From contig CAUYUJ010011159.1 of assembly GCA_963575745.1 (NCBI GenBank), forward strand, positions 401,374-465,373: 64,000 bases of DNA, written 5' to 3'. This DNA is from Prorocentrum cordatum (Eukaryota; Sar; Dinophyceae; Prorocentrales; Prorocentraceae). How positions within the stretch are numbered: the first letter of the stretch is position 1; the number at the start of each line of letters is the position of its first letter. Positions 105-64,000 of this stretch are shown here, piece by piece. The notes below the pieces were generated by a model, which saw only the letters and a program-made list of their open reading frames with translations, was not told the origin of the DNA and did not search any database. A program made the position numbers and the translations under genes.

Positions 105-1595
105 CCCAACCATATGCAGTTGTGAGTAATGCTGGTGTGAGTACCGTCTTCGGTGGATCTCCCTATGGGGCCACGAAACGTGTGAGGGGTGTGCCGAAAT
201 GGGTGGTGGGGAGGCATGCGAACCCTGCCACTGGGGCCTTCGGTGGTGCTCCCTATGGGGCCACGAAACGTGTGAGGGGTGTGCCGAAATGGGTGGTGGG
301 GAAGCATGCAAACCCTGCCACTGGGGCCTTCGGTGGAGCTCCCGATCGGGCCACGAAACGTGTGAGGGGTGTGCCGAAATGGGTGGTGGGGAGGCATGCG
401 AACCCTGCCATTGGGGCCTTCGGTGGAGCTCCCTATGGGGCCACGAAACATGTGAGGGGTGTGCCGAAATGGGTGGTGTGGAGGCATGCGAACCCTGCCA
501 TTGGGGCCTTCGGTTTGGAGCGCCTGTGGGGCCGAAACGTTGTGAGGGGTGTGCCGAAATGTTTGTTGGGGAGCATTGCCAACGCAGCCATTGGGGACTT
601 CCAGTGGAGCTCTCTTATGGAGCCACGAGGGCCACGAAATTGTGTGAGGGGTGTGCCGACATGGGTGGGGGAGGCATGCGAAACCCTGCCAACGGGGCCT
701 TCCGGTGGAGCTCCCTATGGGGCCACGAACGTGTCAGGGGTGTGCCTGAAATGCGTGGTGGGGAGGCATGCGGACCCTGCCATTGGGGCCTTCGGTGGAG
801 CTCCCTATGGGGACACGAAACGTGTGAGGGGTGTGCCGAAATGTGTGGTGGGGAGGCATGCGAACGCAGCCACTGGGGCCTTCGGTGGAGCTCCCTATGG
901 GGCCACGAAACGTGTGAGGGGTGTGCCGAAATGGGTGGTGGGGAGGCATGCGAACGCAGCCACTGGGGCCTTCGGTGGAGCTCCCTATGGGGCCACGAAA
1001 CGTGTGAGGGGTGTGCCGAAATGGGTGGTGGGGAGGCATGCGAACGCAGCCACTGGGGCCTTCGGTGGAGCTCCCTATGGGGCCACGAAACGTGTGAGGG
1101 GTGTGCCGAAATGGGTGGTGGGGAGGCATGCGAACGCAGCCACTGGGGCCTTCGGTGGAGCTCCCTATGGGGCCACGAAACGTGTGAGGGGTGTGCCGAA
1201 ATGGTGGTGGGGAGGCATGCGAACGCAGCCACTGGGGCCTTCGGTGGAGCTCCCTATGGGGCCACGAAACGTGTGAGGGGTGTGCCGAAATCGGTGGTGG
1301 GGAGGCATGCGAACGCAGCCACTGGGGCCTTCGGTGGAGCTCCCTATGGGGCCACGAAACGTGTGAGGGGTGTGCCGAAATGGGTGGTGGGGAGGCATGC
1401 GAACGCAGCCACTGGGGCCTTCGGTGGAGCTGCCTATGGGGCCACGAAACGTGTGAGGGGTGTGCCGAAATTGGTGGTGGGGAGGCATGCGAACGCAGGA
1501 GGGAGGAGGGCGAGGAGAAGGAGGAGGAGGAGGAGAAGGAGGAACGCGGGGACCGTTTCTTCAAAACGAGGACCCAACACCACAGGATGGTTGGG
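105..1595 (+). mobile_element. Array element A: inverted-terminus element carrying a 90-bp tandem array
   Basis: The left terminus CCCAACCAT (105-113) is followed by ATGCAGTTGT. The right terminus ATGGTTGGG (1587-1595) is its exact reverse complement. Between them lie about 15 units of a 90-bp repeat with the core GGGGCCTTCGGTGGAGCTCC followed by GGGGCCACGAAACGTGTGAG. Units at 850-1200 are nearly identical; units at 500-700 are diverged and of irregular length. A purine-rich GGAGGAGG stretch (1498-1545) separates the array from the right end. Because 90 is divisible by three, long open frames run through the array, but they are repeat-driven and I do not call them genes. Element status is inference from the shared termini seen in elements B-J; no transposase is present. 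Confidence 0.7.
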
Positions 1596-2284
1596 AAAAA
1601 ATCACGAAGAGTTGGTTATGCGGGTAGCCGGGGCGAGGGTGGTGCGAAATTCTGGGCGAGTTTTTATGGATCGCCTGCAGGTTTGAGAAATCGAAGTTCG
1701 ATTGAATGTTGACGATCCATAATGTGGTTTCGCCCGGAGAACCAGCTCCACTGCCAGAAGCATCAGAGTCCCATCAGGATCCAGAAGTCTACCCGGAGAA
1801 CACACCCCTTTCGCGGGGAACCAACCCACTTCCCGGAGAACAAACCCCTCGCTCCTTTGAAGGGGGGGGTTCTGCGAGCAACGCCCCCCCGCCCTTTTGA
1901 ATTACGGGGGGATCCACTGGCGCACTTTCCGCATTTGTGATCGGCATCAAGTGTGCCCTTGACATGCCAACAATATGTCCGATCATATGCGTACGCTCTG
2001 CGTATATCGTTAGAATAGGAAGAAAATGAAGAGACGGACAATGAGGAACGAACAATTTGATTAATTGGAGTGTGACCATTGAGGATTATGCAAGAGTGGC
2101 CACGTAGACAAAACTAAACAGAAAAGGAGGAGGTGGATGAGGGCGGGGAACCGCATCAACACCAAACGGAGCAGGAGGTGAAGGAGGGTTGATGGGGATT
2201 TCGTGGGGAGGTGGACGAGGAGGAGAAGAAAACGATGATGACGAGGATCCAGACGGACAAAGCAAGTTGAGGAGTAGTATTAGT
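1596..2284. other. Gene-free spacer
   Basis: I see no gene here. A short imperfect repeat built on CCCGGAGAAC recurs three or four times at 1732-1850, followed by G-run and C-run DNA at 1860-1900. The rest is unremarkable. Confidence 0.5.
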
Positions 2285-2948: not shown

Positions 2949-5900
2949 TTGCCCAGGCGCTCGAGCAATCGCCCAGCTTCCCGCTCGAGAGAGCCCCGCG
3001 GCGCGGGGCCGATCACCCTTTCCGCCCCGACCTCGGCCAGGGCCGCGACCAGCAGCTCGTGTACCTCCAGGGCCTTCGGAACGCCCTTGTCGATGTGAAC
3101 TTGCAAGCGCACCTTGCCTTCCATTTTCTTCGAGACCGTCCCTTTGGGCTTCCGGACGCGGAAGTACGGCACCATCTCTGCGATCTCCTCGCGGCTGGAC
3201 CCCTTGAAGACCTCCCTCCACACCTTCTCTGCCTTCTCCTTGTACTGCTCCCCGACGTTCTGGCGCATGTTCAGAAAGACTGCCATGAGCACCACCAGGA
3301 ACGGCGGGCCGAGCTGAGACATGTCGACCTGCGGGTCCGACTCCTTCTGCTCGCGCAGCGCCTCCACCTGCTCGTGGTAGTGCTTCCCCGCCGCAATCGC
3401 CGCCAGCGCGATCCAGCATTGCTCTGGGAGGATGAAGGTGTGAAACGTCGATGCCGTGAGGTCGGCGAGCTCCCGCGCGTTCATGAGCACGAGGCGCCCG
3501 AGTATGAGCACGAGCGCCATGAGGGTGTCCTTGTTGCCCTTCTGGCTCCCCTTGGCCAGCTTGCTCGCTTCGGACGCGAGAGCCTTGGCCGACCCTTGGT
3601 CTGCGGCGGACGCCTTGCGCTTGGGGCGCATGGGCGCTGACCACTCGGGGAGTTCCACGTCGTCTCCGGCCAGGTCCACCAGCATCGACATGCTGCCGTC
3701 CAGGGCCGAGCTGCTGAAGCCGCGGTGTAAAAGGAAGATGCGTACTCAGATGGTCAGTGAAGGCTGAAAGGTCGCCGAACTCTGAGCCGCAAATTTGACA
3801 GCACATGGACGCCGGAATCTGCAAGCTATTCAAAGAAGAGGCCTTATCCACCAAGCAACGCTGATGCTGGAGAGCCCCCGAAAGATGATGAATCGCAGCC
3901 AATCTCGTGGAAAATATCTGACGGCAGGCCACGCACTGGTTCGTGACTGTCACCGCTGCTGAAAATGTCTTGACTTTATGGGCCGATCGCAAATGATTAA
4001 GAAGACCCCGTCTATCTGCGAAAGCTGCGTCGCATGCTCCCTGAGAGTCGCACCAGCTACAAACGTGGCATCGTTCTGTCAAGAGGGCGTTAGACTCAGC
4101 CCTCGCAGCTTCCTCTCGGCAATCCCACGGTGGAACCTCCACCGTAGTCGCGGCCCGACGTAGGATGCCCACGTCGATTCTCGAAAAGGCCTGGGCGACC
4201 TCGCACTCGAAAAAAGCAGCGATCGACTCGTTGACCGACCCCCACAAGACCGCCGCCTCCTCCGAGCACTGGGCCAACACCACAATATCCTCCTGGGCCC
4301 TCAGAGCCCACGGGTTGGCCCCAGGAACAACCCGGCCCCCCTCGTCGAACACAGCCTGGTCGAAACTGAATTTGCCGAAGATTGCCCCCACTACTTGCCG
4401 ATGCTGCTCGGGTCGTCGGAAAATCTCTTGCAGCCAACGCAGGCGACGAACCCGGAGTTCCACCCCAGTAGGTGGGATTCCCCACCATTCCAAAACTGCC
4501 TGGGACGACAAGCACCGGATACCCCTTTCAGTCTCCCATGCTGCCGCCCCGCGCATCGCACGACGGCAGAGCCCAGCCAGAGCAAGGTCCATGCGTTTCG
4601 TTTGTGCCGGGCTCGGGAGAAAGCACTCACATGCACTAAGGAGTCCATTTGCAACTCGGCATACCATAAGACATTTTTTCCATCTGAAGGGGACGTTGGG
4701 CGCAGACCAAAACTTCCCCATCATGAAATAAGACTGCTTCATCGCCGCTATTCTTTTGACGAGCTCCCCCGAAAACGACTGGCTAGCAGAAAGCACAGGC
4801 CCCAGGTACCGAACGTGTTCAGCAGCACTAATGTTATATTTCTTCAGCTCGTTTGCTAGCCTCCGCTTAGCCCTCCCTCCCACAGATAGAATAGCTTCTT
4901 GCTTGCTGATGTTCCTCCGGTACCCCGCACCCGCTAGTTCTCGATCTAGTATTTGGTCACATAGCTGCACTTTGCGCTCTACGTCCTTGACTGTCCAGCC
5001 CTTGTTCAAAACTACCTTTTTCTTCAGATCGTCAGCGAACTTGAACAGCCCCAGGTAAACTTTAGTAGGGGACACGAAGGGAACCTCTGCCTCAAGCAAT
5101 GCATCATCCTCGTCAGACGCACGGTACTCCGCTATCCAAGCGTCCACTGGGACGCGGAACGCCTCGAGGAAGGTGTGGACGGCAAATGGGTCGCCCATGA
5201 ATGCGCCACACGAGTTTTTAATCAGAAGCTGCCCCTCCGGCGTGGGCAACAAACACGACGACACTCGATACCTCTGAACCCCCAGACCGTGATGGAAGTC
5301 TCCCGTGTAGCACCTCGTGGCACGATCGAGCGCCCTCCACGAAGTCGAAGCGAATGCGTTTGTCATGTCTTTCAAAAGATCGATCCAGTCAAAACCAGCT
5401 TGGCGGAGTCTCCACCCCGTGCACATTGATGAAACGATCGCATCTTCACGACGTCTGCGTCTCAAGAAACCATGGTCACACTCGGACGGACGAGGTCGGG
5501 ACCCTGGGTCCTCCAGGGATGCCACAAAACACTTTCCGAGGGGATCAAGACCATGAACAACTCTTCTACCACGAGCTCCCGGTTGTGTATTTTTGAAGAG
5601 GGGGAAGCCCTGACTGCACGACCACTTGATTGGTAGAGCCCAACACTGTCGGAGCTTAGTGAAGGAGGCGAGCAGCCAGTCGCGGACACTTTCGGAGAGC
5701 ACTGCACGCGGTTCGTGCCCAAGGCCACGACGCTGTACTATGCCACTGGGCGGGATGAGGCACATGTGAAAAAGCTCAAGTGGACAAGCCCAAGTCGGTA
5801 CTCCCCGCCTTTTTGGAGCTTTGCGTAAATATTTGATCAATTTCTTCATGTCTCTTTCAGCCATTTCCTGGGCTACAGCTTCTGGAATGGCCAGCCTACC

Positions 5901-49928: not shown

Positions 49929-50171
49929 ACGCCGCCGGCTGGGGCCGGGTCTTCGACAAGTTTTAGGCCTTAGGCACTACGTCTTAGCGTTTGCGGCGTG
50001 CGCCACGGTTCCAGTTGGTGCCAAGGAGGGCTCGCCTGCTGCGAAGCGCGCCGCGCTCGCTCCTAGCGATGTTGCGACGCGCGCGCGAAACGCAGCGACT
50101 GCGGCATTCTCGCACTACGTATTAGTAGCGTTCGCGGGGCTTGCCGCGGGCCCAATCGGGCTGGGACCGTT
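49929..50171 (+). other. Spacer with a duplicated word before the CTAT-rich island
   Basis: CACTACGTCTTAGCGTTTGC (49974) and CACTACGTATTAGTAGCGTT (50113) form a degenerate pair about 140 bp apart. No gene is seen. Confidence 0.4.
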
Positions 50172-50614
50172 GGACAGCATCCTCTCCGCAACCCTTCCGA
50201 GCGCCAGACCCCGCTTGGTGCGTTTTATTATCTATGCAGGAACCGTCGGAAGTTTGCCGTTCTGTCAAAGAGCATCGCGTACTATCTGGAGGAAGCCGGC
50301 ACCACCACTTCCGTCGCGCGTATCATGGATGTCATGAAGGACGCGGGGTTCGGCCGCTATCATGACCAGGTCACGTACACGACAGTGCGCTTTGCGCGTT
50401 CTATCGCGCTGGCAGATCGGCGCGAGCACAGTGATTCTATCGACGATTGGCGCGCGTTGCGTTCTATGTCCGGGCACGTCCGCAAACGCATCATGAAATG
50501 GGCGATTTGGGAATACGAGACCGCTATTTTTTCCGAGATGGCATGCGGGATATCCTGTCGCAATCGGATTACAGCTTGCTCGACCTCATTGTCTATACAT
50601 GTCTCATGCGGTAG
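50172..50614 (+). pseudogene. Unrecognised coding fragment with a frame change at a T6 run
   Basis: The frame at 50172-50525 reads QHPLRNPSERQTPLGAFYYL, continuing to WAIWEYETAIF. Directly at TTTTTT (50527-50532) the minus-one frame takes over as FFRDGMRDILSQSDYSLLDL and ends at TAG 50612-50614. Both halves look protein-like. No ATG is found at the upstream end, so the 5' part is missing or lies in another exon. The change of frame could be an indel in the T run or programmed slippage. I recognise no domain. The segment shares the CTAT bias of the island. Confidence 0.45.
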
Positions 50615-50711
50615 CGCTCAGTGCTTCCACTGCCGCGAACTGCAAGACCAGTATGCTTCTATGCTTTGCAGTCGCTTGCATGCCTGTACCTCCACGGGGC
50701 CTTAGATTACA

Positions 50712-50860
50712 ATGCTGCAGGACATATGTTCAGAGCCAGCCTGGCTCTATCCCAGGCCGTAAGTGTCAGGGTCTGCATTGTCATCATGTTGCAGGACATA
50801 TGTTTACAGCCAGCGTGGCTCTATCCCTGGCCGTAAGTGTCAGGGTCGCCTGGACTTAGC
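50712..50860 (+). repeat. Two-copy repeat of about 76 bp with CAGCCAGCxTGGCT dyad
   Basis: Each copy reads GCAGGACATATGTT, then CAGCCAGC, TGGCTCTATCCC and GGCCGTAAGTGTCAGGGTC. The first starts near 50714 and the second near 50791. A third partial copy of the end (CTGACCGTAAGCGTCAGGTC) is at 52482-52501. Confidence 0.75.
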
Positions 50861-50869
50861 CTGCGTTAA

Positions 50870-51140
50870 TTAAGGTAACAACGACCTCGACGAACATGAC
50901 GACGACGACGACGACCACAGCGAGCGACGAAGAGTGACGATGAAGGCGGCCCTTTTGTATCAGGCGCCTGTGGCCTATGCCGACACCCTGCTATGGCAGC
51001 ACAGCGTGGGTCTCAGATATGGGAGGACTGTGCTAATTCGTAGTAGGCTATATTCTCTGGTATGCTACAGTGAAGCTAACACATGACGTAAGGCTTGGGG
51101 AACTATGTCTTTGCTATGTCTTGTGTTGCTATTTGCTATT
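50870..51140. other. Non-coding part of the CTAT-rich island
   Basis: A short GAC/GAA tract (50882-50945) and otherwise no recognised feature. Confidence 0.4.
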
Positions 51141-51144
51141 TGTC

Positions 51145-51300
51145 CGAAGATGATCTATACAATGAGTATCTGATATTCTCGGAAGCTGTCCACGCTATAA
51201 TATCAAGGTCTTGTAAGGTCCGGTGCTGTTCTGTCGTGCTATGTTATGCCATGGTCACGCGAAATCTGGATCTTGCATCGGTTCTATGTTTTGCTTTCAT
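51145..51300 (+). repeat. Island repeat R1, copy 1
   Basis: CCGAAGATGATCTATA, then CCACGCTATAATATC, AGGTCTTGTAAGGTCCGGTG and TGCTATGTTATGCCATGGTC. It matches 52536-52660 over about 125 bp; its end (GAAATCTGGATCTTG) also matches 54315-54330. Confidence 0.7.
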
Positions 51301-51514
51301 TACGTCGCATTGCCGAGTTGGCATCGCTGTTCCCTACTAGGGTGTGCAACGGATAGCACCGGAGCCCCATAAGTGGGGATCCCTGTGGGGTGTGTGCTGT
51401 CTTAGCCTTGTCTATTCCGGGGAGCAGAGCATGGCATAGTTAGGTCAAAAAGTAGAGCATAGTGTAGGCCGGTCCCGAATTGCGGTTCTATTCCCATCCG
51501 GAGTTTGGCACGGC

Positions 51515-52312
51515 GTGGTATGCCAGACCTATGCACGTACCGTGCCAGGGCTTGGTACAGCACAGCACGTCATCTCTTCCTTGCAGCCGTCTCGGATCCA
51601 GGGCTGCTTCGCATTGGGCAGCGCAGAGGCGGTCTATATAGCGTGTGACCAATCGTCTGCTGGACTGTCGCTTCCCGCCAACCCTATGCCGCGCTGGGTT
51701 CCCATGGCGAACGTTGACTCGACCGCTATGTTCATCGCCTTCATCGCCTGGTATCGGCAGCCCTGTTCCCGCCGCATGTTCTATGCCATGCGCATGGACA
51801 CGATCGCGACGCAGATCGATCATGGAGCTATCGGCCCGGTGACCGACACTGAGTGGGTCGAGGATCATTACGTTCCTATCAGGAAGGTGCTATGCGATGG
51901 TATTTTGTGCAGGCGGTGTCGAGCACATGGTGGGCATTCTATTCTCCCGAATGGCTTCATATTCCGCTGGTTCAGCCCTTTGTGGGGAAGCCTATACATG
52001 AGTTACCGGAAGCCACACCTGAACTCGTGGGTTCCCGCGGACGGCTATGAGTACCGTGTTCCAGCCGACGGTGCACGCTATCGTGGCAATGTTGCGCGTG
52101 ACCAGCATGGGACTTGCTTGGTTCCGCGGAGCAGGTGGGCGGAGGTGGCCGCTATCATAGGCATCGAGCCACCTGACGGACTGGACTCTGCATCGGACGT
52201 CACGGTGGACATGGCATTGGACGCTATTACGGATCACGTAACCGCCTCTGCGCAGGAAGAGGCTCTGGATCCAATCTATGAGCAAGCGGACGCGGACGAC
52301 TCGCAGCTCTGA
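51515..52312 (+). CDS. Unrecognised ORF of the CTAT-rich island, 265 codons (frame uncertain)
   Basis: The frame is open from before 51515 (GTG there) to TGA at 52310-52312; the first ATG is in NPMPRWVPMANV. It holds a Cys/His cluster (CDGILCRRCRAHGGHSI) that could bind zinc, and ends in an acidic tail (EQADADDSQL). At 51853-52050 a second frame reads MRWYFVQAVSSTWWAFYSPE and on to LHIPLVQPFVGKPIHELPEA, which looks at least as protein-like. Two compensating indels, or an intron, may therefore disturb the annotated frame. No family recognised. Fifteen CTAT words lie in it, against two ATAG. Confidence 0.45.
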   Translation: MVCQTYARTVPGLGTAQHVISSLQPSRIQGCFALGSAEAVYIACDQSSAGLSLPANPMPRWVPMANVDSTAMFIAFIAWYRQPCSRRMFYAMRMDTIATQIDHGAIGPVTDTEWVEDHYVPIRKVLCDGILCRRCRAHGGHSILPNGFIFRWFSPLWGSLYMSYRKPHLNSWVPADGYEYRVPADGARYRGNVARDQHGTCLVPRSRWAEVAAIIGIEPPDGLDSASDVTVDMALDAITDHVTASAQEEALDPIYEQADADDSQL

Positions 52313-52535
52313 TCGCTCCACATCAGTATCAGTCAGGGCTATTGGCAGCTTCGCATGCAGTTTTGTGTGCGCGTGTCCCAGAGATGCGTGCTTCTATGCT
52401 AGCGTGTTTGCCTGGTCTCATGAGCCATGTACGTTCTCTGTGTGCCGCAGCTTCCTTTGATTAGGCAGAGCTGGACTATTCCTGACCGTAAGCGTCAGGT
52501 CGCATGCTGTCTGCTTCAATTTGTCAGAGAAAAGA

Positions 52536-53000
52536 AAAGCCCGAAGATGATCTATAAAATCAGTTCCTGATACTCTTGGAAGATGTCCACGCTATAATAT
52601 CCAGGTCTTAGAAGGCCCGGTGCTAGTCTGTCCTGCTATGTTATGCCATGGCCACGCTACACTATGTGGTTTCTCTCATTCAGGGGAACCTCGCGTCTGC
52701 CGTGGGTGCGTTGCCATCTCTATTATAAAAAAACCGGGTTCCTATAGCATCAGGTTATTGGAGCTGGTATTCTCTGCTATATCATGGCATGGCCACGCTA
52801 TACTATCAGGGTCCTCTAACCTCAGGTCAACGACCTGCTCTGCTGCACCTTGTTTTGGCATGGCCACGCTATAACATGAGTTTCCCTAGAGTTTGGGGAA
52901 CCTCCCGTCCTTCGTCCTTGTTCTGGAATTGTGGGAAACGCTTCTGTGCTATGCCAGGCTTGCTATTCAACGCTATGTCATGCTATAGCCATTATATATA
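52536..53000 (+). repeat. Island repeat cluster 1: R1 copy 2 and two hairpin units
   Basis: R1 copy 2 (52536-52660) is followed by units containing ATGCCATGGCCACGCTATA, then a GGGGAACCTCGCGTC hairpin arm (near 52683) and a fuller stem GAGTTTCCC with GGGGAACCTC (52880-52910). It lies directly upstream of the 246-aa ORF. Confidence 0.65.
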
Positions 53001-53168
53001 TTGTATTGCTCGCTCCTCTCTGCTATTCTCCTTTGCCAAGCAATGAAATGCTGAGGTAGAGCTAGCATAACATCAGCTTCGCCGTAATTGTCATGAAATG
53101 CTGTTGCTGCTGATTAGTGCTCAAGCTGTCAGCTGCTCCTCGTATCTGAGCCGGGGTCTCTATCTATT

Positions 53169-53909
53169 ATGGGTGACTTCTCCGCTATGTTTGGGGCGAG
53201 CGCGGGGGGTGACGACAAGGAGAAGCCGCAGGAGAAGAGCAACAAGCTATGGCCGTGGGCTACGGCGCCTGCGCAGTTGCTGAACGCGTGCGGTTCCAAC
53301 CACCTATCCGATGCAGAACTACCGCAGTTGTGGAAAGTGCTCGCGCAGGGGAACAAGTCGGCGCCGTTCTTCTATGAGGGTGTTGACGAGGATACGCTGC
53401 GCCAGTCTGTCGCCGTGTCCCGCGCCGCCCAGGCTATCCAGGCCTTCGCGACGGACGTGTTGTCGGCGCCTTTCATCGACCAAGTGCTCGAGGATCCTAT
53501 TCACAACAACGCCAAGAAGGAGGCCGCGGACCTATTGCCTCATTTGCAAGTGCTGAACGCCGCTGGTGTGCCTATGCCGGACAGCAAGTCCAAGGATGAC
53601 CGGAGGGCTATGTTCAAGCGCCAGCGCACTGACGCTGTTGTGCCGGAGAAGGCGAAGGTCGAGAGTGCTGCGACTGCGCTATACACGTGGATCAACAAGA
53701 AGCCCTCGGACTTGAAGTTGCTCATCATGATCTTCGGTGCGAATGGGCTATCGCACAGTGCCCAGGTCTATGAGAAGTGCCTTCGTGCGCATGTGTCTGA
53801 GCGTCAGCTGGACAAGGACGCCTTCGTGGCTATGATGATCCGGCGCTTTGACGGCGCGCAGGCGTCCGGGTCGTCGGGGTCGAGTGACTATGCTGCTTTC
53901 AAGGCTTAG
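53169..53909 (+). CDS. Unrecognised intact ORF of the CTAT-rich island, 246 aa
   Basis: ATG 53169 (MGDFSAMFGASAGGDDKEKP) to TAG 53907-53909. The product is soluble and mainly helical by eye: Lys/Glu-rich N-terminus, LLNACGSNHLSDAELPQLWK, a middle segment IDQVLEDPIHNNAKKEAADL, a basic stretch DDRRAMFKRQRTDAVVPEKA that could be a nuclear localisation signal, and a Ser/Gly tail. There is no stop, frameshift or low-complexity tract, and coding bias is even, so it is very probably a real gene. Five of its leucines use CTA, and all five are followed by a codon starting with T, creating CTAT. Fourteen CTAT and no ATAG were found by eye. I recognise no domain. Confidence 0.7.
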   Translation: MGDFSAMFGASAGGDDKEKPQEKSNKLWPWATAPAQLLNACGSNHLSDAELPQLWKVLAQGNKSAPFFYEGVDEDTLRQSVAVSRAAQAIQAFATDVLSAPFIDQVLEDPIHNNAKKEAADLLPHLQVLNAAGVPMPDSKSKDDRRAMFKRQRTDAVVPEKAKVESAATALYTWINKKPSDLKLLIMIFGANGLSHSAQVYEKCLRAHVSERQLDKDAFVAMMIRRFDGAQASGSSGSSDYAAFKA

Positions 53910-53954
53910 GTGGCTATACTCATTCGGGACCGTTGCGTGGCCAGGGCTTCGCAC

Positions 53955-54063
53955 ACGAGCGCGGGTACCGTTTTCCTTGTATGAAGAGGCAGAGCGCATC
54001 TATTGACCGCACACGGGCGCCGGCGCCGTTTTCCATGTATGTAGAGGCGGAGCGCATCTATTG
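53955..54063 (+). repeat. Two-copy 56-58 bp repeat downstream of the 246-aa ORF
   Basis: CGTTTTCCTTGTATGAAGAG, then GAGCGCATCTATTGAC; the second copy follows immediately with a few changes. Confidence 0.8.
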
Positions 54064-54299
54064 ACATCTTGTTAAAACGAACGGTTCGCATCGCTTCTGG
54101 CGCTCTTGATCTTGAGCGTGAACTGGCAGTTGTATGGTAACATGCGCTCATGCTTATGCATATCTACACACGGGCATTCGTTATCATAGTTGGTCGTGTG
54201 CCAATCTGCCATGAGCACTGGTCTCCCCAGCCTTTTCACAGGCCTTGTTTGTTGTTCTCTGTTTCCTATCTGCAATGCGGCCTCTGCTGGGACCACGTT

Positions 54300-54890
54300 T
54301 CGTTATGTAGCTTTGAAATCTGGATCTTGGACCGGTACTTTCTATGTTTCGGAATATGTCATGTTATACTATCAAGGTATTATAAGCTCTGGTGCTGTTA
54401 TGTTGTGCTATGTTAGGCCATGGCCACGCTACAATGTGAGGTTCCCCTAATTCAGGGGAGCCTCGCGTCTGACGTAGGTGCTTTGCTATCCCTATTGTCA
54501 TGCCATAGCATGAGGTCCCTATAGTATGAGGTCCTGGAGCTGGTATGGTGTGGTATATTATGGCATGGCCACGCTATACGATCCGGGTCCTCGAACCTCA
54601 GAGCAACGACCTGCTATGCTGTGCTTCATTATGTCACGACGACGCTATAACATGAGGTTCCCCAGATTTGGGGGAACCTCGCGTTTTTCGTCGTTTCTAT
54701 GATACAGCCACGCCATAACATGAGGTTCCTATAGCATGAGGTCTTCGAGCTGGTATGCTGTGCTATGTTGTGCGACGGCCTTGCTATAACATGACGTTTT
54801 CTAAATGCTGGGGAACCTTGTGTCATTCGTATGTCCTTTGCTATGCGATGCTACTGCCGTGCTATAACATGAGCTCCTCATAGTTTCGGT
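54300..54890 (+). repeat. Island repeat cluster 2: GCCACGCTATA units with GAGGTTCCCC hairpins
   Basis: Four or five units of about 110-130 bp contain TATGCCATGGCCACGCTATA-like words followed by a hairpin. The stems GAGGTTCCCC / GGGGAGCCTC (54441-54471) and GAGGTTCCCC / GGGGGAACCTC (54654-54682) are the best; a decayed form is at 54796-54816. Same family as cluster 1 at 52536-53000. Confidence 0.7.
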
Positions 54891-54904
54891 ACATCTTCAC
54901 CTTT

Positions 54905-55125
54905 GTCGTCGTTGTCGTCGCCGTCGCCCTTGCCGTCGCCGTCGCCGTCGCGGTCGTCGTCGTCGTCGTCGTCGTCGTCTTCATCGGCGTCATCATCATC
55001 ATCATCATTCATCATCATCATCGTCATCAGCATCATCATCATCCTCATCATCATCGCCATTATCATCATCGTCATCATCACCATCATCATCACCATCATC
55101 ATCACCATCATCATCATCAGCATCA
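54905..55125 (+). repeat. GTC/ATC trinucleotide tract
   Basis: GTCGCC/GTCGTC (54905-54980) followed by ATCATC/GTCATC (54985-55123). Confidence 0.92.
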
Positions 55126-55240
55126 TGTGTGCGCCTTTGTGTTCGGTCTGTCCGCGGCCGCGGCGATCTCTATGCTGAACGTACGGTCGCGTATTCACGC
55201 CAGCCGGTGTTTTTGTTTTCTTGCAAGCGCCCGGCATGCG

Positions 55241-55270
55241 GGTTTAGGGTTTAGGGTTTAGGGTTTAGGG
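55241..55270 (+). repeat. Interstitial telomere-like tract, four GGTTTAG units
   Basis: GGTTTAGGGTTTAGGG-type DNA, 30 bp. TTTAGGG is the plant-type telomere unit, also used by dinoflagellates. Confidence 0.9.
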
Positions 55271-58841: not shown

Positions 58842-61800
58842 CTACTCCTGGAGGTTCTCGATCTCCTTCTCGGTAGCTTCCGGGTGTTGTGCTGCTCTCT
58901 TGTGTCGAACTGCCTGGCCCTCGATGAGGGTGATCTTCCACTTACCGGTAGTGCAGTACACCAAGAGCTGATCGAACCAGCCTTCCTTCGTGAGGCCGTC
59001 GGCTAGCATGATCCTGGTTGGAACGTGTAGTAGAGAGCGAATACGATGATGAACTCGATCTTCGCGAAGTGCCATGGCGGCCACTCTCTGCGACTTATCA
59101 GATGGTATGCCACGGCCACCTGTGATCAGCTCGAAGAGGTCCATGCAATCTGTCACCGCATCATGCGGTATGATCGTGATATCCTTCTGGCTTAGCTCCA
59201 GCATGTCATGTGCGGTGATCGTGGCACGCGGAGACAGCAGCATCTGGCAGAACAACTCTGTGAGCCTTGCCGCGATCAGCTGACCCATCTGAGTACATCC
59301 GATGGCTGAAAGCGTCTCCGCATGCGATGTCGAGTGAGAAACTCTTGAGGCCTTGCGAGCACTGAAGAACAACGTGTGTGCATAGCCTCCAACCTTGGAC
59401 AAATCCTGACCAGTGATCCACTCAGGCGTGTCAATAGTCAGGTCGTCATGCATCATCATAACGAACTTTCCTTCGTACGGATAGCAGCTCTTCTTGCTTG
59501 CATGCCCACAGTCGTGTATGCTGCAGAGCCTCAGTGGAAACGGCACTCGATGGTAGTGCAGGCCGTTCATCTCCTTCGTCTTGCGAGCCTTCGCAAGTAC
59601 ACGATTGGCCATCTTCATATGCTGAACTTGAGGGCACACCATCTCTGACTGCAACGAAACCACATCATGAGCAATATCCACTCGCGTGAGACACAGCCAT
59701 AGCAAACTGCAGACCAGCGACCTGAACTGGTGGTGCTCGTACTCGTCCAGCTCCTGGAAGTCCTTCTTAATATTGTACGCGTTCGTGAACTTGGCCTCCG
59801 GCAACTTCTCGAGGTAGTGCTGCTGGTGAACCAGCAGATGTCCTGGGGTGAGCATCTCGTGCTTCATGCCCAGGTAGGTGAACGGAAGGCCTGTCCTCTT
59901 CGGGTTCCCGAACTTCTGTCCGAGCTTCTTGGCGATATGATCGAGGAAGTCCTTCGTCGCTGCTAGAAGAAGATCGTCCACGTGAATGATACACAACGAT
60001 ACAACCTGCCAGCCATTGATGATCATCAGGAAACACTCGTCATGGGTACTCATCCTGTAGCCGATGTCCAGCTTCAAGTAGTGCAACAGCGCCAGCTGCC
60101 ACAGCAGCGGAGCGTCCACCAGGCCGTATAGCGCCTTGAGGCACTTCAGGATGAAGTGTGGAATATCTCCATCCAGTACTGTGATCTTGCTCTTCGGAAT
60201 GTTCCTCCAGTGCCTCCATATGTTCGCCGGCGGGCGAAACCAGACTTGGCGCGCCTCCTTGACCTCGTGGCCTAGCTCCTTCGCTTTGGCCACCACCTCG
60301 GAGAACTTCAACCCTTGAAGAAAAGCTGTTGAGATGTCGAAGCTTTCGAGGGTCAATTCGAACTGCATGGCCAGTGAGCAGAGTAGCCTGTGGCTTAGCC
60401 GCGAGGCTGTTGACGAATGGCGACTCACCGTCGTCTTCTGGCGGTCCAGAAAACCGCGACCACAGCACCTTGACTTGACAATCCGCTTCTGCCGATTCTT
60501 CCACTTGCGCACCCAGATGCCGTCCACGACGTTCGTGGCATTCGAGGACAGGTCGATCTCGAAGACATCGTGGCTGTACAGCGACACTGCCTCCTCGTAG
60601 TCACCGATCTCCACGACATCCCAGCTGTCGATCACCCCTTGTGGCGTGAGGAGATCATCAGATGAGACCGAAAAACACTGGTCCTCGCGAGCGTCGCAAT
60701 AGAAGCACATGGGCCTCGTCATCGGCCCTTCAAGTACTGCAAACGCCTCTGATGCCGTCCAGGGCAGCTCGCCTCGCTCAGCTTGCTGACTGAAATGTAG
60801 GATCTGCTCTGCGTCGGCAATGGCGTGCGTGAAGTGTTCCTCGTCAAAATGTGGCTTGAAGCCAACTGGAGCCACTTTACGCAGAGGCTGTCCCAGTCGG
60901 TGCTCAGCGTGGTGTACATCGAACCACACCTGGTAACTGTGCATCTCGAGCTTCTCCTGCTTGTCCTCGTCGATATTCTCGCTTGTTGCCGGGCCGTAGT
61001 CGATAGTCTCGTCGACGTCGGCGGGCTCAGCGATGGGCAGGACTGGCTCTGGTGGAGCCAGGGCTCCCGATGATGCCGATGCCGCTGAGGCGCGAATTCC
61101 AGGCGCCACTCGATCGTCGGGCGGAGCGTCTGGTGCTTCTCGCTTATGCGGTTGTGTTCTGGCTGTAATCGGCGATGCTGTTGATCGATGCCTTAGAGAT
61201 TCTTGACGAACTTGTCGGTCATGCTCATCGTGCTGGGCTCGTGGATCTGGAGCAGGTCCATAGTCTCTCGTGCGAGACCTGTCCAACTCTGATGTAGTTG
61301 GCGATGGTCCTTCGTGACTTGCTCCTGGTAGAGGTATCTCCGGCAGAGGTCCCAAGATCGGCTCCTCTGGCTGACCATAGTCGAGAGTAGGCTCATGCGT
61401 GTTGCCGTAGTCCAGCGTGTCCTGCTGACTAGCTGGTGAAGACGGTGTCGAGGCCTTGGCCGCTGGAGGCGGCGTGGCTGCTCTCAGAGGTGATGCTGAG
61501 ATTGCCACCTCTGGTTGCGGAGTCTTCGGTACGGCCACATTCTCGCCCGATATCGGCACCCGTCTTGAAGGTGCCTCCGGCCTGGGAGCCCGCTCGAATA
61601 CTCTTGATCTTGACCGATCTGCCGTAGCTGGTGAACTGCTGGAGGACTCCGACAGCTTGACGATGTCGGTGTCCGCTTGGTCGTCTGGGTCGATCGCGCC
61701 TGTGCTCGCAGGCGGCGCAGGAGGTGGCGGCACGAAGCCTGCGACTGCTGCTGCTCCTCCTCCTGGCGGCGGCGGCGGCGGCGGCCGCGCGATGTCAGCC

Positions 61801-64000
61801 TCGACCTCAGGTATGACGTCGAACGACACGTTCGGAGACAGCGGCCTGCGCCTCGATGGTGGAGGCGTCTTGGGCACATATGACTGTGTTGTTGGCCTTG
61901 GCACATGTCTCACTGGTGGAGCTGGCACTGTAGGTTCAGCTGGTGTCTGTCGGGCAGCAAGCGGAACCTTCGCTGGCAGCTGAGGCTGCTGACCACCTGG
62001 TCTTGGAAAATCTCCTTGTTGACGATGGTCATCTTCATCGTCGCCAGCTTCCAACCAAGAGCCTCCAAACGACGTCCATGGTGATGCTGTCCATGGAATG
62101 GGAGATGGACCACCAACTCCACTGAGGTCGACTTCGGGCGTGTCCTCGATCTCGTCGTTCGGCTTGTTGTAGCTAAAGTATAGCATGAAGCTCTCGTCCT
62201 TCCAAGGGCCTGAAAATGAGAGCGGCAGTGCCTTGTCCGGCACCACATCGCGGATCATGTAGCTCTCTCGGCGACTGTTGTTCCAGGTGATGAGCTGTCC
62301 GCGCTGTGCCGCTGAGATGGCATCTGTCCTCTTGCACTTGTTGCCAAACTGGATGCCATCGAACTTCGTGCCGTTGAGAACTCCCGTGAAAACCTTCTGA
62401 GCGACCGTCCACAGCGGTGGCGGATTCTGCTCAAGGTCGGGCGGCACGACGATGTAGCTGTGGTCCACACTCGAGTAGACCAGGCCGTAGGTGTATGACG
62501 AGAAAGCCGCTCCTGTCTCCACCATCTCCATCATCTGCTTGACCGTGTCGTTGAATTCGTGCTGTGTGGCGTAGACCTGGCTGCTGTGTGACTTGTGGTG
62601 GAGCAGCCACACGAAGCCGACATGCGGGCGCAGGTGCCTGATGGGCACCAGCATGATGTGGCCTCTCCAGTCGACCACAGCTCTTGAACCGCCCTGGTAA
62701 ACCTTAATAACCTCGCATGGTCCACGCCAGCCAGGGTCATCCTTTGAATCTGGCTCGCGCCAGAGATCTGCCTTCGCGCCGTCGATGATCTTCGCACGGT
62801 CCTCGGGCTTGAACTTCTGCATCTTGGTGTTCTGAGCCACCGCCAGTCGGTCCTCGACAATGCTCTGTAGTATCGCCTCCTTGGCCATCATACGGAGGCG
62901 GATGGACACCTCGATGGCGTCTGGAGCTGTCTCCAGCGCTCCGGCAGCGGCTGAGATCGTCTTGACCTCTGGGTCATATAGCTCTCTGGGCTGATAGCCC
63001 AGCAAGCCCTGGTTGGGCGTGTGGCCGTTGTAGCTGAGCATGCTGTTGGTGGACATCGCAGTCTCGCAGACCACCTGACTCTGCGTCGTGTTCAGGCCCG
63101 TCTTCTGGACTGTTGCCCGCAGCTTCTGAGCCCCCGTACGAATGATCTCGATCCTTCTCTCTGCGATGGGCGCGGCTGTGTGTCCTTGCGATCCGCCGAA
63201 GTCGCGGATGATATCAAACTTCTCGCAGCACTTGCCGACGAGGTCGCTCGTGATGGCGCCCTCCTGGTCAGTAACCAAGTAGGTCATCGGGCCGAAGTAC
63301 CTGATCCAGCTCCTGAAGACCACGGCCATCCACTCGTCGGCGGTCTTGCGCGGAAGCTCTTCCACCAGACACCAGCGAATGCATTCGTCAACTAGCACGA
63401 TGAAGGTCTTGTCAAAGATGAAGAAGAGGTCCGTCTGGACCCTGTAGTTGAAGTGCTCTGGCAACATGGCCTTCACTTGCGGTCGAGTCAACTTGCGCTT
63501 CCACTGGCTGCACTCCTTGCAGCACTCAATCACGCCATCGACTAAGTCGAGCACCTCCTTGCCATAGCCAGCCCGGTAGAGCATCTTCTTGAGCTCCATG
63601 GCAGCCGCATGCCAAAACTTGACATGGATGCCCATGATGATGGCCTTCTTCTCCTTGACTGAGGCCTTCGAATCACGAAGCACCTTCTTGGCGGCCTTGA
63701 GGTCGAAACTCGGCTCGATGTACGTTGGCGGTGCCACTGCCTCTGGAGGAGGCTCGATGTCCGCAGCTGGAGCTGCAGCCGCTGCTGCCGCTGCTGGTGC
63801 AGCGGGCGCCTCCTCCTGGGCTGGTCCAGGAAGATCTGCTGCTGCCACTGGTGCTGCAGGCGCGGCAGGTGGTGCTGCAGGTGCAGCTGGCGGTGGTGCT
63901 GCTGCTGGCTCCACTCCCGGCAAGGGCGGATGAAGCCCTGGCGGTGCTGCTGGCGCACCTCCGCCAGCATCTGGGACACCTCCAGGTGGTATACCCTGAC
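58842..64000 (-). CDS. Copia-type retrotransposon polyprotein (integrase, RT, RNase H), 5' end outside the window
   Basis: One uninterrupted minus-strand frame runs from the window edge to TAG at 58842-58844; the first visible codons are Pro/Ala/Gly-rich linker, with no start. Numbering from 63923: zinc-binding H/C cluster around H100, H105, C135 and C138; integrase triad D165, D219, E255 with exactly 35 residues between the last two; a Pro/Ser/Asp-rich variable region at about 600-1000; copia RT with FDISTAFLQG (motif A) and HVDD at 59973-59984 in place of the usual YVDD; RNase H with SIHDCGHA, STSHAET and the terminal ADGLTKE. Gag and protease must lie upstream of the window edge. The absence of stops over 5.1 kb suggests a young, possibly active copy. 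Confidence 0.92.
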   Translation of the reverse strand, partial: QGIPPGGVPDAGGGAPAAPPGLHPPLPGVEPAAAPPPAAPAAPPAAPAAPVAAADLPGPAQEEAPAAPAAAAAAAAPAADIEPPPEAVAPPTYIEPSFDLKAAKKVLRDSKASVKEKKAIIMGIHVKFWHAAAMELKKMLYRAGYGKEVLDLVDGVIECCKECSQWKRKLTRPQVKAMLPEHFNYRVQTDLFFIFDKTFIVLVDECIRWCLVEELPRKTADEWMAVVFRSWIRYFGPMTYLVTDQEGAITSDLVGKCCEKFDIIRDFGGSQGHTAAPIAERRIEIIRTGAQKLRATVQKTGLNTTQSQVVCETAMSTNSMLSYNGHTPNQGLLGYQPRELYDPEVKTISAAAGALETAPDAIEVSIRLRMMAKEAILQSIVEDRLAVAQNTKMQKFKPEDRAKIIDGAKADLWREPDSKDDPGWRGPCEVIKVYQGGSRAVVDWRGHIMLVPIRHLRPHVGFVWLLHHKSHSSQVYATQHEFNDTVKQMMEMVETGAAFSSYTYGLVYSSVDHSYIVVPPDLEQNPPPLWTVAQKVFTGVLNGTKFDGIQFGNKCKRTDAISAAQRGQLITWNNSRRESYMIRDVVPDKALPLSFSGPWKDESFMLYFSYNKPNDEIEDTPEVDLSGVGGPSPIPWTASPWTSFGGSWLEAGDDEDDHRQQGDFPRPGGQQPQLPAKVPLAARQTPAEPTVPAPPVRHVPRPTTQSYVPKTPPPSRRRPLSPNVSFDVIPEVEADIARPPPPPPPGGGAAAVAGFVPPPPAPPASTGAIDPDDQADTDIVKLSESSSSSPATADRSRSRVFERAPRPEAPSRRVPISGENVAVPKTPQPEVAISASPLRAATPPPAAKASTPSSPASQQDTLDYGNTHEPTLDYGQPEEPILGPLPEIPLPGASHEGPSPTTSELDRSRTRDYGPAPDPRAQHDEHDRQVRQESLRHRSTASPITARTQPHKREAPDAPPDDRVAPGIRASAASASSGALAPPEPVLPIAEPADVDETIDYGPATSENIDEDKQEKLEMHSYQVWFDVHHAEHRLGQPLRKVAPVGFKPHFDEEHFTHAIADAEQILHFSQQAERGELPWTASEAFAVLEGPMTRPMCFYCDAREDQCFSVSSDDLLTPQGVIDSWDVVEIGDYEEAVSLYSHDVFEIDLSSNATNVVDGIWVRKWKNRQKRIVKSRCCGRGFLDRQKTTVSRHSSTASRLSHRLLCSLAMQFELTLESFDISTAFLQGLKFSEVVAKAKELGHEVKEARQVWFRPPANIWRHWRNIPKSKITVLDGDIPHFILKCLKALYGLVDAPLLWQLALLHYLKLDIGYRMSTHDECFLMIINGWQVVSLCIIHVDDLLLAATKDFLDHIAKKLGQKFGNPKRTGLPFTYLGMKHEMLTPGHLLVHQQHYLEKLPEAKFTNAYNIKKDFQELDEYEHHQFRSLVCSLLWLCLTRVDIAHDVVSLQSEMVCPQVQHMKMANRVLAKARKTKEMNGLHYHRVPFPLRLCSIHDCGHASKKSCYPYEGKFVMMMHDDLTIDTPEWITGQDLSKVGGYAHTLFFSARKASRVSHSTSHAETLSAIGCTQMGQLIAARLTELFCQMLLSPRATITAHDMLELSQKDITIIPHDAVTDCMDLFELITGGRGIPSDKSQRVAAMALREDRVHHRIRSLLHVPTRIMLADGLTKEGWFDQLLVYCTTGKWKITLIEGQAVRHKRAAQHPEATEKEIENLQE

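Follow-up and report, generated by a model that had tools for sequence, protein, structure and literature searches.

The window analysed here is a stretch of 64,000 nucleotides (nt) of DNA from Prorocentrum cordatum, a bloom-forming alga, in which an island at positions 50172-54890 is saturated on one strand with the tetranucleotide CTAT. The island belongs, as a fragment, to a large unidirectional element present in many copies (the CTAT element), which carries CTAT on its sense strand about every 50 nt, in coding and non-coding DNA alike. The pattern points to selection on the entire word, and a related element with an HUH-like/helicase gene maintains GTAT in the same manner; we are nearly certain of this description. 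The following features of the fragment were assigned, all on the plus strand (ORF, open reading frame):

50160..55242 (+), CTAT-element fragment, given by the extent of homology to other genomic copies
50232..54862 (+), maximal-scoring CTAT-rich segment, from a maximal-segment search
50148..50705 (+), C-terminal remnant of ORF324, 5'-truncated (genome matches C11159:451521-451928 and 451894-452064)
51515..52312 (+), ORF265, conserved gene with a CDGxLCxRC pattern (9 database homologues, 92 genome matches, CTAT 15 versus 5.3 expected)
52313..53168 (+), spacer rich in CTAT, containing inverted repeats of the GGTTCCCC/GGGGAACC type, from counts and a repeat search
53169..53909 (+), ORF246, a conserved gene remotely homologous to ORFB of the GTAT element (15 database homologues; CTAT present at 14 of the 19 sites where synonymous codons allow it)
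53910..54890 (+), 3' spacer rich in CTAT, containing inverted repeats and a tandem duplication of 58 nt (53950-54065), from repeat analysis
55240..55270 (+), GGGTTTA repeats resembling telomeric DNA, immediately at the fragment's 3' cut, from the sequence

Alignments of L011-L014, L020, L021, L027 and L028, loci elsewhere in the genome, begin at window position 50160, and those of L012, L016 and a separate piece of L011 stop at 55242. L011, L012 and L016 extend beyond the 3' point of the window fragment, and several copies have more CTAT-rich DNA upstream; the alignments indicate that the window copy is cut at both ends, near 50160 and 55242. The original prediction had described a unit of 4.7 kb with stops near 50.2 and 54.9 kb. 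This size is too small: the 4.7 kb are a fragment, with homology over about 50160-55242 and an island of about 29 kb in another copy. The remnant of ORF324 (frame 50067-50705) holds 9 CTAT versus 3.95 expected, a count reached by 2 of 1000 codon shuffles, and full-length copies of this gene contain a CLYC...H pattern. Three of the nine database homologues of ORF265 start with MSLPxNPMPRW (around residue 57 of the window ORF), and the true start of ORF265 is therefore uncertain. Part of the spacer between the two genes (52578-52919) matches 54351-54695 at 78% identity.

In the island CTAT occurs 92 times and its reverse complement ATAG 12 times. Partial CTAT/ATAG counts made earlier by eye were reproduced on recounting: 14/0 in 53169-53909, 15/2 in 51515-52312, 20/2 in the non-coding 52313-53168 and 1/0 in the kelch exon, so that the claimed one-stranded bias across coding and non-coding DNA is confirmed. 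Relative to a maximal-order Markov expectation derived from trimers (65.3; z 7.0), CTAT is the most over-represented of the 256 tetramers, and it also shows the highest strand asymmetry; the segment 50232-54862 (+) scores highest for CTAT in the whole 64 kb. The positions flanking the word carry at most 0.10 bit each, so that the word is truly four letters long and a longer motif was rejected. Lesser biases of CTAT or ATAG, seemingly unrelated to the element, are seen at 1-1.7, 13-20, 23-25 and 40-41 kb of the window, and these blocks contain repeated peptide-like units (GAPYGATKRVRGVPKW and similar in translation).

The contribution of synonymous codon choice was assessed with shuffles that preserve both the protein and its codon usage. 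ORF246 contains 14 CTAT versus 5.2 after shuffling and ORF265 contains 15 versus 5.3; none of 2000 shuffles reached either count. The word is realised at 14 of 19 (ORF246) and 15 of 25 (ORF265) synonymously possible sites, in all three codon phases. Codon shuffling gave no CTAT excess in seven further long open stretches elsewhere in the window (two of which overlap, and not all of which are proven genes), including a copia polyprotein, the kelch exon and a helicase-like ORF. The excess is present in all 17 copies of ORF246 tested (observed count reached by at most 7 of 500 shuffles) and in all 12 of ORF265 (at most 15 of 500); these sets leave aside ORF246 of L023 (two, one duplicating L026), L027 and L028 (split frames), and ORF265 of L014 and L023. 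Among 124 ORFs of at least 250 residues from the window and the loci (without L001-L008, L025, L026 and low-complexity ORFs), the top word was CTAT in 30, GTAT in 11 and ATAG in 7. Overall, the words occupy roughly 40-75% of the possible synonymous positions. In genes taken from stop to stop (ORF249 of L033; L034 6829-7893) the counts are inflated by some end spacer.

Base composition, codon usage or satellite DNA could be suspected as the source of an artefact, in view of the GCTAT runs in the spacers and of other words with high shuffle z scores (CGAA, 8.9 in tandem repeats at window 130-1683; CAAG, 8.7 in an ORF of L010, 7 versus 0.6). Such an origin is extremely improbable, given the codon-shuffle and Markov controls, the seven control stretches of the window and the recurrence of the same word in different genes of the element. 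The copia-type polyprotein (window 58842-63998, minus strand) has a mild CAAG excess of its own (61 versus 35 in codon shuffles); it was rejected as a further word carrier because its CAAG copies are not evenly spaced (p 0.32), and for the same reason it serves as a control in the spacing test below.

A search of the P. cordatum assembly (4.13 Gb, 21,875 contigs) yielded at least 138 matches to ORF246. Nine of these have 90-100% identity (among them the window's own copy; two are partial), further ones have about 54-78%, and identities of 25-35% are shared by a large group. ORF265 has 92 matches and the upstream gene ORF324 has 37 (pieces included). All 20 loci around ORF246 copies (L009-L028, with L025 the window's own copy and L023 and L026 overlapping) show the one-strand bias, with CTAT/ATAG counts in their CTAT-rich 500-nt bins ranging from 44/18 (L024) to 135/12 (L013). 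On contig C14417 the island extends over about 29 kb, with 923 CTAT and 155 ATAG; 118 of these 155 ATAG lie inside local inverted repeats, whereas for control words the figures are 8 of 42, 5 of 25, 3 of 62 and 12 of 80. The element comprises five genes on one strand (ORFY, ORF249, ORF324, ORF265 and ORF246), separated by spacers in which GCTAT runs occur together with inverted repeats of the GGTTCCCC/GGGGAACC type. The gene order is 324-265-246 in copies of the window's kind and 324-246-265 in a second subfamily. The ratio of nonsynonymous to synonymous substitutions, compared in ten pairs, is 0.36-1.48 for close and 0.35-0.46 for distant copies, values such as would be expected for a mobile element with many decaying copies. 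Two suggestions of the original prediction, that a unit of DNA maintains a word specific to one strand and that the word marks an element having machinery of its own, are thus upheld: synonymous choice keeps the word in a multi-copy element, and a related element maintains a different one (see below).

No transposase or reverse transcriptase family was found by Pfam in the five genes and eight further ORFs of the C14417 island, a subset of its ORFs, and no reverse transcriptase was noticed by eye among the ORFs read. The two retroelement proteins of the window gave no tblastn match in the loci. ORF265 and two proteins of the GTAT element (RepHel and ORFB, described below) have no confirmed relatives in IMG/VR, and ORF265 and RepHel have none in GTDB contigs either. 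An RCC1-repeat gene, perhaps a captured host gene, lies inside the islands of L017 and L018 (at about 2.9-4.1 kb, in element orientation); this passenger has a weaker CTAT excess, and in L018 neither the excess (11 versus 6.4, 14 of 1000 shuffles) nor the evenness of spacing (p 0.18) is clear. A group of 31 copies of ORF265 at 83-94% identity (on C10069, C13343, C13591 and others; 17 with an open frame of 304 residues) outnumbers the close copies of ORF246 and suggests a further type of element carrying ORF265. A protein of 139 residues in a EukProt set labelled Pyramimonas (P0009) is 96% identical to ORF246; expression, transfer or contamination of the culture are possible origins.

Several copies of the CTAT element are 5'-truncated. 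The 3' ends of all eight subfamily-2 copies compared (L019-L024, L026 and L028) coincide at ...CCAAGCCTGGTAGA, with T for C in one copy, and are followed by degenerate CCCTAAA-like repeats. A block starting CCCTAAATTTCT adjoins this shared point in L028 and opens a homologous block in L020. Targeting of telomeric repeats, or insertion primed by telomeres, is a possible reading of these ends. Two copies of the window's type (window 55240-55270; L010, about 5781-5802) have different 3' cut points, each adjoining GGGTTTA repeats that run in the opposite orientation, as though telomere repeats had been added to broken ends.

The relatives of ORF246 at 25-35% identity in L029-L032 (ORFB) sit in a different element. 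ORF246 and ORFB align over 222 columns with a probability of 98.5, and three database homologues of ORFB carry the label Prorocentrum cordatum (P0027, P0028 and P0104). In L031 and L035 this second element has one gene, RepHel, with a GTPHWH motif and a helicase-type domain. The motif, a candidate HUH Rep motif, was spotted by eye in L035:3492-5999 (REP_ORF2-G2P E 0.008, bits below the cutoff); downstream in the same frame AAA_30 matches residues 639-817 above the cutoff (E 2.4e-13). Helitron_like_N was not among the eight Pfam families found for L035 at E ≤ 0.01. The RepHel frame extends to 1141 residues in most copies. ORFC of this element was compared with ORF324 and rejected as its homologue. 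Among 54 scored of 503 candidates, at least 50 copies of RepHel share 95-100% identity across 829 residues or more, and 43 of these lack a stop. The GTAT element has therefore been recently active, and these near-identical sequences indicate that a rolling-circle-like element underwent a recent burst in P. cordatum.

The word of this element is GTAT, which is the top of the 256 words in RepHel (51 versus 22.4), in ORFB plus ORFC (46 versus 22.8) and in a third gene (53 versus 26); no CTAT excess was found in the element. The GTAT count exceeds all 500 shuffles in 8 of 8 stretches tested, that of the L031 helicase being the end of the RepHel frame. In five pooled stretches of the GTAT element there are 175 GTAT versus 82.8 expected, and CTAT is depleted (7 versus 27.2). 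Five pooled stretches of the CTAT element contain 84 CTAT versus 37.5, 9 GTAT versus 16.2 and 6 TTAT versus 14.6.

Selection was then resolved to single letters by comparing synonymous choices where the neighbouring bases would complete the word with the same choices elsewhere. In CTAT genes, CTN before T ends in A in 28/46 cases versus 5/86 elsewhere, NCN before AT ends in T in 54/80 versus 80/415, C precedes TAY in 24/52 versus 296/1036, and TAT is chosen after C in 44/48 versus 24/54. The same four tests for GTAT in GTAT genes gave 49/89 versus 6/144, 29/37 versus 60/337, 39/57 versus 478/1402 and 83/100 versus 11/37. All four letters are thus enforced in each element for its own word (p 7e-3 to 3e-19). 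Seven of the eight crossed comparisons were null (the eighth is taken up below), and five control stretches gave no letter effect for either word (lowest p 0.11). Together with the Markov, codon-shuffle and control-stretch tests, which rule out chance, these results exclude composition and indicate that each element is selected to keep a word of its own on its sense strand.

Since every letter is enforced, no single type of mutation or editing suffices. A footprint of strand-specific editing, deamination or biased repair that makes the word could account for the strand bias, and CCAT is indeed the commonest departing word (7 of 19) at majority-CTAT sites in close copies of ORF246; enforcement of all four positions at wobble sites would, however, require a context-dependent multi-base mutator, and neither the even spacing nor the different words of related elements is in keeping with one. 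We consider such a footprint very unlikely.

The spacing of the word is even. The coefficient of variation of the CTAT gaps in the island is 0.63, compared with 0.98±0.10 for random placement (0 of 2000 as even). For 8 of 9 genes of the CTAT element, the used CTAT sites are evener than random subsets of those available (p < 0.05; p 0.057 for the ninth), and GTAT is evenly spaced in 7 of 8 stretches of its element (p 0.37 for the eighth); in the spacing and letter tests the three rows for ORF324, three for ORFB and two for ORFC are homologues and not independent genes. The mean gap is 51 nt for CTAT and 53 nt for GTAT (medians about 50 and 47). No strongly supported period was found, and a fixed phasing was rejected.

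Our preferred explanation, to which we give a probability of roughly 0.45, is that a protein encoded by the element, with the ORF246/ORFB family as candidate, recognises and binds the word in the element's sense-strand RNA or in its displaced single-stranded DNA. ORF246 and ORFB are the first candidate readers because they are homologous and the only gene found in both elements; other candidates are ORF265 (CDGxLCxRC) and ORF324 (CLYC...H). A single-stranded or RNA target is suggested by the one-stranded bias and by the location of most opposite-strand copies within inverted repeats (see above). The word would be the binding site of a nucleic-acid-binding protein that coats the sense-strand molecules of the element, either transcripts or the single strand that rolling-circle transposition displaces. 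The observed spacing would result if each site held one protein that covers about 50 nt. A family-specific word would restrict the coat to the element's own molecules, providing self-recognition, cis-preference or protection from host surveillance, and the specificity of the reader would have changed between CTAT and GTAT within the ORF246/ORFB family.

A number of observations weigh against this explanation. No binding domain was recognised in ORF246 or ORFB by Pfam, PDB or fold comparison (the ORF246 fold has no PDB match at E ≤ 0.001), and the structure models are weak for ORF246 (predicted local distance difference test score, 60) and useless for ORF265 (34). The word is absent from a relative with 35% identity at another place in the genome (L039), whose frame seems to be broken. 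In the predicted sense RNA the probability of being unpaired is 0.23 for CUAU and 0.16 for all 4-mers, with many A/U-rich words as high or higher; presentation of CUAU in loops was rejected on this ground. RNA and single-stranded DNA targets fit the present sequences alike. The remaining crossed comparison was nominally positive (CTAT genes, GTN before T ending in A, 9/44 versus 9/116, p 0.027). Lastly, tblastn of RepHel pieces against L009-L039 (E 1e-4) hit only RepHel's own loci, so that the CTAT loci read (C14417 being the one full element among them) yielded no relative of RepHel; rolling-circle transposition is therefore not demonstrated for the CTAT element.

The reader could also belong to the host. 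Host machinery could read the word in transcripts, for export, suppression of splicing or evasion of RNA surveillance, each lineage having its own solution; the one-strand bias in coding and non-coding DNA alike would suit this, as would the long introns, enriched in introner elements, that are reported for the host genome (PMC10666404). A host reader would be expected to use one word, yet the two elements differ and each is depleted in the word of the other, and the control stretches of the window are without both words. We regard a host reader as doubtful.

An unlikely alternative acts on double-stranded DNA, in the manner of VANC of the Arabidopsis VANDAL elements: a protein of the element would bind the word along the element and keep it active by anti-silencing or licensing. 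In the published account of VANC (PMC5735166), family-specific short motifs are bound by an element-encoded protein, related families differ in their motifs, and the motifs occur in non-coding tandem repeats; the spacers of the CTAT element are likewise word-rich repeats. Four bases are, however, little for a double-strand binder, and a duplex site should work both ways, whereas one strand is favoured by about 6:1 to 8:1 and the opposite-strand copies of the 29-kb island are mostly found within inverted repeats. The VANC21 motif is moreover a 9-mer with its strongest signal in non-coding DNA and with coding-region probes lacking it, according to the same account (PMC5735166), whereas here coding DNA is saturated.

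VANC/VANDAL is the nearest known logic: related elements differ in their word, and both systems have motif-rich non-coding repeats. As for a Mutator-type transposase (VANA), no transposase family was among the CTAT-element ORFs scanned by Pfam, which were the five genes and eight others of the C14417 island. Neither even spacing nor a synonymous-site pattern figures in the part of the VANC account at hand (PMC5735166). The likeness is one of logic, and no relation of ORF246/ORFB to VANC is established. The further comparisons concern rolling-circle, viral, genomic and telomeric systems. Helitrons are rolling-circle transposons that transpose as one strand, which would suit a one-strand word, and the GTAT element resembles them in its HUH-like GTPHWH followed by a helicase-type domain in one frame, plus accessory genes. 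It differs in the Helitron_like_N result for L035, and the CTAT loci read differ in the RepHel result. To judge from these sequences, the GTAT element would qualify as a Helitron only in part, and membership is not shown for the CTAT element.

Single-stranded RNA viruses have multiple dispersed packaging signals with a very short motif that is bound by the coat protein, and many copies of a short motif along coding and non-coding sense RNA are found here as well; CUAU is, however, not preferentially in predicted loops, and no capsid gene was recognised in the element. HIP1, uptake sequences and Chi are words maintained genome-wide, in coding DNA too and above expectation, but they are longer than 4 nt and a property of whole genomes, whereas the words described here are element-bound, four letters long, one-stranded, evenly spaced and different between related elements. 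Terminons are telomere-attached retroelements, which the common 3' end of the subfamily-2 copies, the CCCTAAA-like repeats behind it and the 5'-truncation of several copies recall; the difference is that no reverse transcriptase was noticed by eye or in the ORFs scanned by Pfam, a part of the total. No description of evenly spaced, element-specific words on the sense strand was found in the open-licence PMC literature, and we know of no mobile element or virus that evenly spaces one four-letter sense-strand word, coding DNA included, with relatives that differ.

In its widest form, which we advance tentatively as short of even odds, the proposal is a self-recognition code: each lineage would have its own NTAT word with the first letter changed, placed on the sense strand at intervals of about 50 nt, synonymously in genes and with avoidance of the words of relatives, and its own protein would read single-stranded RNA or DNA so as to coat and mobilise only its own copies. 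If this is true, further lineages with ATAT, TTAT or other words are expected, and binding of CUAU and GUAU by the ORF246/ORFB proteins becomes a prediction for experiments in vitro. The words provide a sequence handle for finding such elements without any other recognisable gene, and they reveal a layer of synonymous-site selection that takes up roughly 40-75% of the possible positions in these genes. Overall, the data suggest a way in which selfish elements distinguish their own molecules from others.

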